Both the position numbers and the translations under genes were made by a program. From the NCBI RefSeq assembly GCF_037975245.1, contig NC_092575.1, positions 11,891,001 through 11,955,000 on the forward strand: 64,000 bases of DNA, written 5' to 3'. This stretch comes from Apostichopus japonicus (taxonomy: Eukaryota; Echinodermata; Holothuroidea; Aspidochirotida; Stichopodidae). The notes beneath the pieces were generated by a model. It searched no databases. It was not told the origin of the DNA and was given only the letters and a program-made list of their open reading frames with translations. Every line of letters starts with the position of its first letter. Within the stretch, counting starts at the first letter, position 1. Shown here piece by piece: positions 9,001 to 12,000 of this stretch.

Positions 9001-12000
9001 CACACATCATGAATGATCTTACAAATTATGAGATTTTTTAAAAGATTTTCTTTTATTCAAAAAACCTTTCCCCATGAATTGAATTTCTATGGGCCCTATA
9101 TCTGGACTATCCGCTAAGGTGAAAACTGTTAATAGGCTATATTGATATATTCACTATAAATATATTGATAGACTAAGGGACTTGGAATTGTTAACGTCCC
9201 TTCGGAAAATTGACTTTCATTTTCCCTTTCCCTATAACCATACCGACCACGCACACAAGTCTCCATCAATGAAGCTCTCGACTCTATTTTGTTGATATTT
9301 TCCAGGTGATTGTCCAGAGAGCTCTAGCTGCTAAATCGGTCGGCCATGCCAAGGGAGCATGTATTTTCGCCGCTTTCTTGAAGGTTTTACCGATGTTTTT
9401 GATTGTCATCCCAGGAATGATCAGCCGTGTGCTCTTTACCGATTCCGTCGCCTGCGTGGACCCTGACGATTGTATGAGAGAATGTCAAAGTGAAACTGGA
9501 TGTACAAACGTTGCCTATCCCAAGCTCGTTGTCAACGTCATGCCAACTGGTAATGAATTAATGGTAGCACTGCTGCATGGGGTGGGGTGCCAGTTACCCC
9601 TCCCTCCACCCCCCCCCCCCCATTTCCTCCCCTTCCCAACCCCAGGCTCCGGCTGTTATGTAAGCTCTTCATACAACAACAACAAAAGGAAGACGAGTTT
9701 GTTCTGTACAATGAAGACCCACATCTCAGTAACAATTTTAGCTTTAACTCATCTAGATATAATTGTTTAATGTTTGAATTTTATTTTCTCCATCTGTACC
9801 CCTTTATTACTGAAGGAAAATAGATACCAGTGAGGTGCCCGGTGTGTGACCTCCTCGTTGCAAATGTTCTTCGTAAACAAGAAGTTCTTGGTAACCTTGT
9901 TTTAAAATTTTCAACCACATTTTCTATTGCCACTTTTTGAAAACATTTCAACTTGCCTAGAATATTCATTCTATTATTTACCATCCGTCTATTTCTGGGA
10001 AAATTATCAAAACTGGTTCAGGATTAGTACTTTGAAAGAATGATTTTTTTTTAAATAGTTAGTGATTTCCAGCACACTGAAATGTTTGGTCAAATTGCGG
10101 GAAGTAGATTAATGATAAATGGTGGATTAAGATGCCACCATTTTGTTTGGGGGGGGGGCCGGGGGACCAGAAATAGATTCTGTATTTTAATAATCACAAC
10201 GGTGTTTCATAGCAACCTCTTTTTGTGTGCAGTTGCGTGATTGGAAATCCAATGTAACTGAGTAGTAACTTTGGAACTTTGGAAATGTTTTGAAATACTG
10301 CCCAATCTGTAGCTTAATTGAAACGTAGATTGGAATGAACTCAGGAAGTTATGGAAGTGCAAGCTACCGTCGTTGAAATCTGTCAATTCAATTTATCGCA
10401 ACGAACAACGTTTTTAGAATACATACTGTAACGTCAAGGTCTCAACCCTAACATTAAAACGTGTCACACCAGAGGTCGAGATGTATAAAAAAGTACCCCT
10501 TTCCCGAATGAACAGTGAAAATTGGTAATAGACATTAGCTCAAATTAACAACTTTGCATTTTTGGTGTGCTAATCTCGTCATCGGTAAGATGAAATTGGT
10601 TAAAAAAAAAATTGAAAATTGAAAATAAATAAACAAAACAAAGAAGGTTGTTATTAAAGGTATTTCTTAGAAGAAAGCCTTTTCATGTCTCACTTACCAG
10701 GCATTGGAAACCCACTTAATGTGTCATAGAAGCGTCATGCATTAGTTTTTGGTTACGATGCCGAAGGCTCAGTAACATTTGCAATCATGAATGGGTGTGT
10801 ACGTGTGTGTGTGACTGGTATGTGTGTATGGGGGGGGGGGGGGGTGACGGCCAACTTGTAAACACGATACCTCAAGAAGCACAAGTTGAGTCAATGTCAT
10901 ACTTGGTAGGTAGATGCCCATGGTATATAGGTGTGCCGTATTGGGTGTGGTTCCCATCTCGTGCATATTGATACTTTTTAAGAAAAAGTCGCCCAGGAAA
11001 GAACCTGGGCACGAAAACCAAACGTGCCCAAACTACTGAACGACTGATTCGCTTCTAACCCCAGTCCCAGTGTGATCATCGTCAGGTGTGCATCACCATT
11101 CCCCTCGAAAGAGAACAGATACTACACATGATCTTAGCCAAAAGGCCGAGAAGCGATCATATTGATGAGTGGGTTGGGGGGGGGCTAACGTAAAATTCTT
11201 AAAATGGCAATATATCTTCAACCGTATGTTTGCTTTAGTTTATACTTGGTATCGTGATGTCTGTTGATGATAGATATATGGTCATAGACTTAAGAAAATC
11301 CGTTGTCAATATTATTCAGAAATGGGCGTGGCTAGAGTGTTATCACATTGACAAGCTTTTAAACACCGACGATATCTCAAGACCAACAAGTTGAATCAAT
11401 GTTATACTGGGTGGGTAGATGCCCCATGATGTGTAGAATGTGCCTTATTGTTTGTGGTTCCCATCTCATGAATATTAATGAGTGGGCCGGGCTGAACATG
11501 AAATTCGACTCACTTCATTATATCTATCCGATTTTTTTTAAAGCTCAACGCCTTTTGCGAGTCACTTGACTTAGTCAGTAAAGTCATGACTTGTTTCCAT
11601 AATAAGGATCCCTCATTTTCGCTGTGTTTCCAACGGTATCTTATAAATGCCATGATCGTTTCAAAAGTAAGAGATTTGACTGAGGCTCATTGATTCGAGT
11701 CACTGTACTATCTCTAAGACAGAAATAATCTTTATGAACACTTGCGAATGAACTCAATTTGAAAAAGATTAACTTGTTATAATATTGTATCTTATATTAT
11801 GTTCTCCATTGCTACCAGGATTAAAAGGTCTGATGCTTGCTGTGGTGATGAGCGGCTTAATGAGTTCCCTCACCTCAATCTTCAACAGTAGCAGTACTAT
11901 CTTCACCATCGACATATGGAAGAGAATCCGACCGAATGCCAAAGAAACGGAAATGATGGTTGTTGGAAGGTACCGTACATGCCGTACACTTTGTGTGAAT

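Follow-up and report, generated by a model that had tools for sequence, protein, structure and literature searches.

A 185-nt insert in the genome of the sea cucumber Apostichopus japonicus begins as U2 snRNA and continues as unrelated sequence, which raises the question of how a short retroposon comes to carry a U2 head and from which promoter it is transcribed. The answer that we propose, with a probability of roughly 0.8, is that the insert is a stray copy of a short, non-autonomous, SINE-like retroposon that targets U2 genes, has the U2 snRNA gene as its home and is transcribed from the U2 promoter.

The insert in the window

The window, which is the whole stretch of 64,000 nucleotides analysed, contains the following features around the insert.

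10964..10972, no strand: target site duplication (TSD) copy 1, CATATTGAT (ATCAATATG on the element strand); from sequence and spacing control
11158..11166, no strand: TSD copy 2, CATATTGAT; from sequence and spacing control
10973..11157, minus strand: retroposon copy of 185 nt, subfamily A; from Rfam U2 match, BLAST and family comparison
11112..11157, minus strand: U2-derived head, U2 nt 1-46; from Rfam RF00004 (62 bits, nt 1-50) and host U2 genes
10990..11111, minus strand: body, non-U2, kept across the family; no U2 match alone, alignment of 19 copies
10991..11010, minus strand: 3' hairpin GCCCAGG-TTCTTT-CCTGGGC; from sequence and consensus fold
10973..10989, minus strand: terminal tail ACTTTTTCTTAAAAAGT, a small hairpin, adjoining U2 nt 38 in U2 genes; from sequence, consensus fold and U2-gene copies
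11369..11491, plus strand: paralogous repeat without the insert (empty site); from BLAST and alignment
9273..12831, plus strand: host gene context, sodium:solute symporter exons; Pfam SSF on 9273-9770, 11818-11980 and 12526-12831

Because symporter exons lie on both sides, the window copy is intronic and antisense to the gene. As the original prediction had stated, the insert starts at U2 nt 1 and follows U2 for about 46 nt; the head alone scored 62 bits against the Rfam U2 model, covering U2 nt 1-50, and differed from the Rfam consensus at one position in 46 nt (A30T), the T at nt 30 being also present in the host's own U2 genes. The remaining ~140 nt had been taken as non-U2, and the body alone (10960-11111) indeed gave no match to the Rfam U2 model. 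The predicted stem-loop and T-run were found at its end as the 3' hairpin listed above followed by ACTTTTT-CTT-AAAAAGT. The perfect TSD was upheld by a spacing control: exact 9-mers were repeated at a spacing of 185 nt at 4 of 63,720 window positions, and the TSD of the insert was the sole one of these four with at least three different letters. The nearby paralog is an empty site as proposed, since the flanks joined at one TSD copy matched it at 82% over 111 bp (BLAST) in an alignment without the insert.

The window copy, the only one that BLAST detected within the 64 kb, is atypical, with ~20 nt deleted and a 10-nt insertion relative to other copies, most of which are 190-194 nt long. Its predicted fold has an energy of -66.2 kcal/mol (z -3.83 vs shuffles). 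Elsewhere in the window, three glycosyltransferase-10 (fucosyltransferase) reading frames on the minus strand (31105-31923, 39088-40002 and 55512-56498) form a local cluster, and two tRNA-like matches on the minus strand (41182-41254 and 47331-47394) may be heads of tRNA-derived SINEs. The list of reading frames also revealed a ~60-bp tandem repeat at 1162-1591 and a long trinucleotide microsatellite at 11999-12400.

A dispersed family of U2-headed copies

A whole-element search of the assembly that contains the window (671,581,487 bp, 35 contigs) gave at least 44 matches (best 40 of 2565 candidates scored). Allowing up to 2 mismatches, the 35-nt tail matched the genome at 441 + 392 = 833 places, and the reversed control pattern at 0 + 0. 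A tail scan of the viral_contigs and genome_contigs collections gave 0 matches, as expected for a eukaryotic element. We sampled 40 copies in list order out of ~100 listed of the 833 tail matches, skipping places read previously; all 40 have the exact 35-nt tail. Loci that repeat other loci (L003, L006, L007, L019-L022) were excluded from the counts, and one of L093 and L094, which share flanks, was excluded as well, leaving 39 sites for the target-site statistics.

The sampled copies started at U2 nt 1-6 in 18 of 40 cases, nine of these at nt 1, and the other 22 were shorter, 5' truncated copies. A TSD of at least 6 nt flanked 17 of the 18 copies starting at U2 nt 1-6 versus 10 of 304 combinations with swapped flanks, and one of at least 10 nt flanked 12 of the 18 versus 0 of 304; the corresponding numbers for all 40 copies were 26 and 15. 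TSD lengths differed between copies. Among the 22 shorter copies, a 5' inversion was clear in L100 and short in L097, and L104 may be an inverted neighbour. TSDs and 5' inversions are marks of target-primed reverse transcription. The 5' truncated copies are compatible with transcription from a U2 promoter and provide no test of it. The genome search that had been suggested, for further copies with the same junction and different TSDs, was run and yielded many, so that shared U2-body junctions, differing TSDs and the abundance of the tail establish the predicted U2-headed SINE-like family. The element is short and dispersed, in many copies with TSDs, as is general for SINEs. According to the available part of one genome study, SINEs make up 0.02% (159,644 bp) of the Apostichopus japonicus genome (PMC10344927).

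In a pattern test of two copies, one from each subfamily, neither the A box nor the B box of Pol III promoters was present in exact form. One-mismatch A boxes were present in both and a single one-mismatch B box in the A copy, and T4+ runs were located at nt 15, 146-150 and 176-180. By this pattern test the head lacks the internal Pol III promoter that characterizes SINEs, and we therefore use the label 'SINE-like'. The consensus fold of 19 copies retained both hairpins of the 3' end and a long stem in the body. Covariation overall added nothing to it (+0.21 kcal/mol); a change kept on both sides was seen in 2 of 63 pairs, chiefly columns 80/147, and one covarying pair reads UA 8, CG 7 and UG 4. 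Two candidate explanations of the structure were rejected: a tRNA-like or mascRNA-like 3' domain scored 14.4 bits (E 1.5), below the cut-off of 42.5, and for an inverted U2 copy in the body, the head matched the reverse-complemented body no better than shuffles did (542/2000).

Copies L012 and L013 (C19:18.53-18.55 Mb), which share an altered head start, ATCGCTCAGTCTCGG, and like flanks, lie ~8 kb apart; this is a larger segmental repeat carrying the element. At L009, L010 and L011 (C16, C2 and C3), copies form inverted pairs ~3 kb apart with identical flanks, and each copy has its own TSD, ATTTTGGATAACTGGC, which places the copy inside the arms of another repeat; the element is here present in both arms of a palindromic repeat that itself looks mobile.

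U2 genes, their LINEs and the element inside them

An Rfam U2 search of the genome found at least 46 places (best 46 of 40,968 candidates scored), and those listed comprise 42 in one array on C16 and 4 on C15. The C16 array (C16:31.01-31.16 Mb; L032-L058, L074, L115-L118), of which ~49 kb of 150 kb was read, has a unit of 645 bp where undisturbed, and past nt 46 the host U2 genes have ordinary U2 sequence. In the part read, U2 genes are broken by LINEs at one site. At least three kinds of 3' end were distinguished among these LINEs, and after every one of them U2 resumes at nt 38; their 5' junctions are of five types, after U2 nt 30, 31, 45 or 50. The C-termini of LINE types a, b and c gave zf-RVT only at E 0.001, and no C-terminal RLE domain was found in them at this threshold. 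LINE-b, whose middle part was read as well, contains a 925-aa open frame that encodes an APE endonuclease (Exo_endo_phos, 2.5e-20) and a reverse transcriptase (RVT_1, 7.3e-34). It combines the U2 target site with APE and reverse transcriptase domains, as Keno does, and by this domain content it would fit a Keno-like LINE rather than Utopia, which ends in RLE.

An AAAAGT end precedes the target in the LINE a copy in L115, in LINE c copies and in the element, and AAAGT precedes it in other a copies; a possible ACTT...AAGT mini-hairpin is common to LINE types a and c and the element, and is absent from LINE b. The proposed comparison of the body with LINE 3' ends was carried out; it uncovered only this short end shared with types a and c, and no convincing match of the body to the LINE pieces read. 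The shared site and the short shared end (AAAAGT or AAAGT) suggest array LINEs as the likely partner of the element, although the shortness of that end and the lack of a body match count against the explanation proposed here.

The tail of the element joined to U2 nt 38 onward was found at eight places genome-wide, against 0 for the control; the C16 array accounts for six of them, and C20 and C5 for one each. Inside U2 genes the body sits at nt 37|38, behind an unchanged U2 promoter, and is followed by U2 nt 38 onward, with U2 nt 38-45 or 38-53 duplicated around it. In two array units and L117, the U2 promoter is followed by U2 nt 1-42 or 1-45, the complete body, the tail and then U2 from nt 38. 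At L116 a single U2 gene holds two bodies. The body is shortened in L118, where U2 nt 38-53 are duplicated, and also in L115, where it follows a LINE; the 16-nt duplication ATCTGTTCTTTTCAGC in L118 and L115 corresponds to U2 nt 38-53. Where the upstream regions could be compared with intact units, 278/278, 295/295, 330/330, 329/330 and 177/178 bases were identical. These copies are inserted at U2 nt 37-39 and flanked by U2 sequence, as is to be expected of an element that targets U2 genes. Among the 128 loci examined, promoter and head occurred together only in U2-gene loci (L029-L058, L116-L118). The C20 place, L119, is an old U2-like copy and the sole A copy adjoining U2 sequence; its upstream region did not align to the U2 genes tested. 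The possibility that it was retrotransposed from an entire U2-SINE-U2 RNA was considered; no TSD was found, and the upstream is unlike other U2 upstreams. At the C5 place, L120, the element lies inside the U2 head of another copy.

Copies with GCTGAGAG or GGTGACTTT were assigned by script to subfamily B. All array copies read belong to subfamily B, and the window copy and most stray copies read to subfamily A. This mismatch counts against a source of subfamily A in the array; a resident of type A might sit in the portion not read, might have disappeared or might never have been there. Intermediate copies L016, L077 and L103 are 6-10 substitutions away from array copies, and one unit of L014 is 6 substitutions away. 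Four stray B copies with an array-type junction are separated from an array copy by 1, 2, 2 and 3 substitutions.

At the positions of stray sites that correspond to U2 nt 38-41, A was found in 37/39, T in 22/39, C in 18/39 and T in 19/39, and ATC in 9 sites vs 0.7 expected; the stray sites resemble the U2 target. The U2-body junction differs by lineage, with U2 running to nt 45, 49, 50 or 53. The stray copies L026 and L124 each contain, within one TSD pair, an extra U2 piece ending at nt 36/37 and then a second full head; joins of this kind occur at five places genome-wide (control 0). Such double-head copies could also arise via template jumping or from a transcribed copy nested in another. 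The tail followed by ATCTGTTCCCTT, as if a copy had entered the head of another, gave pattern matches at 11 places (control 0), one in the array and ten stray, the latter as pattern matches only. Because the target is part of every stray head, an older copy can receive a younger one. At L003/L014, L015, L016, L121 and L123, copies stand in tandem with a common TSD between them, some of them of different subfamilies.

Origin of the head and relation to known systems

We propose that the U2 promoter (Pol II snRNA-type) would make an RNA from U2 nt 1 through nt 45-53 into the body; if the element in a U2 gene is transcribed from that promoter, its RNA would start at U2 nt 1 and carry the U2 head up to the junction. 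A U2-specific, Keno-like APE-type LINE machinery would bind the hairpin tail, nick T37|A38 and use target-primed reverse transcription to copy the RNA, in most cases into another U2 gene. A nick at a look-alike site (A, often ATCT) would produce a stray copy with the U2 head and without the U2 promoter, which is probably silent. Five observations fit transcription from the U2 promoter in a U2 gene: the restriction of promoter plus head to U2-gene loci, the junctions that differ by lineage, as expected from separate U2 insertions, the extra U2 pieces in L026 and L124, the likeness of stray sites to U2 nt 38-41, and the four stray copies close to an array copy. The lack of an exact Pol III box in the two copies tested agrees with it as well.

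The head could instead have been captured by an otherwise ordinary SINE, in which U2 nt 1-45 became joined to the body early on by template switching, transcription depends on an internal promoter of its own and the copies in U2 genes are insertions at look-alike sites. Stray copies far exceed U2-gene copies, no subfamily A array copy is present in the sequence read, and snRNA-LINE template-switch chimeras are well documented in mammals, as stated in the accessible portion of PMC13174262, all of which speaks for such a capture. However, the two copies tested have no exact A or B box and have T4+ runs in the transcribed part, the exact U2 target site is occupied with the full promoter behind it, and the junctions at 45, 49, 50 and 53 together with the extra U2 pieces that stop at nt 36/37 indicate that heads arose more than once from insertions into the target. 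We therefore regard this explanation as unlikely. Given that the body follows the U2 promoter at the site used by the LINEs, target sequence transcribed together with the element accounts for the head better than capture does, and the head is probably no relic of template switching. Of the original interpretation, the U2-headed family stands and the head as a captured piece probably does not.

The remaining explanations leave more of the data unaccounted for. The single copy in the window would suit a one-off chimeric retrocopy, which had been offered as the alternative to a family; against 833 tail matches with a control of 0 and at least 44 whole-element matches (best 40 of 2565 candidates scored), it is refuted. 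A variant or degenerate U2 gene might be read from the Rfam U2 model, which spans the whole insert with 57 bits (10967-11157, minus strand; gathering score 46), and from a length near that of U2. Yet the head alone scores higher than the whole (62 > 57 bits), the body alone has no U2 match, and full U2 past nt 46 is absent from the insert, whereas the host U2 genes are ordinary there; with TSDs and dispersed sites in addition, the suspicion that the body belongs to a normal variant U2 gene is refuted, and this explanation is highly improbable. We give as little credence to the terminal repeat of a larger DNA transposon, as the 9-bp TSD and the three inverted pairs ~3 kb apart on C2, C3 and C16 might suggest, because these pairs have the same flanks and each copy in them its own TSD, so that the copy lies within the arms of a different repeat, and because TSD lengths vary and two truncated copies have 5' inversions.

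It appears somewhat more likely than not that the sole source copies of the retroposon are inside snRNA genes, where the borrowed U2 gene would provide the Pol II promoter, the transcript start and the target site, and where the head would serve as leader, as 5'-junction homology and as a portable landing site. This would represent a general route to a non-tRNA SINE head without template switching, and stray copies would form a dated record of past U2-array residents. The element bears on the unsettled matter of how snRNA-headed SINEs without an internal promoter originate and are transcribed; since a single assembly contains the source genes and their target site as well as stray copies and LINEs that are likely partners, each step is testable. 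In the array of an essential splicing gene, LINEs and a short parasite share one insertion site, and the results suggest that part of the annotated U2 pseudogenes in Apostichopus japonicus is a mobile element.

Kojima in 2015 reportedly described SINEU as snRNA-headed SINEs of crocodilians, which are said to be linked to Tx1-group LINEs, to have gained U1/U2 heads repeatedly and to prefer a Mariner repeat as target. Our element resembles SINEU in its snRNA head (here U2 nt 1-45 or more) and in being short, non-autonomous and dispersed with TSDs, but its body itself occupies a LINE target site downstream of the promoter in U2 genes, and its host is a sea cucumber, not a crocodilian. The name SINEU is used for SINEs with U1/U2 heads in the available parts of three papers (PMC5753468, PMC7245038, PMC8010984). 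In the literature searched, a scope that leaves most subscription papers and preprints outside, no SINE targeting U2 genes was found.

Keno is described, in the sections available, as a Tx1-type APE U2-specific LINE that inserts 37 nt into U2, with TCTGTTC... as 3' target (PMC6136364, PMC4640811). The element shares this insertion site, at which LINE-b has APE and reverse transcriptase domains; Keno is autonomous and the LINE is ~5 kb here, whereas the element is ~190 nt with no coding capacity reported. Utopia, an RLE-type U2-specific LINE, is known in sea urchins and a starfish and has stray insertions at U2-like sites in crocodilians, according to the portion available of PMC4640811. It has the same U2 target as the element but ends in RLE, whereas the three array LINE C-termini give zf-RVT only and LINE-b has APE. 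Here the nick reads T37|A38, whereas nt 38|39, one base further on, is given for Utopia/Keno.

SINE28 elements are 28S-derived SINEs, as indicated in the accessible part of PMC8010984. They are likewise SINEs from a multicopy non-coding RNA gene, although from another RNA. To our knowledge, no target-site cycle is known for SINE28. The R2 SIDEs are short, non-autonomous, internally deleted R2 derivatives in 28S genes. Like them, the element would be a short parasite of a target-specific LINE that resides in, and is co-transcribed with, the target gene, as proposed here; it differs from them in a body without LINE ancestry in the pieces compared, an snRNA target and many stray copies.
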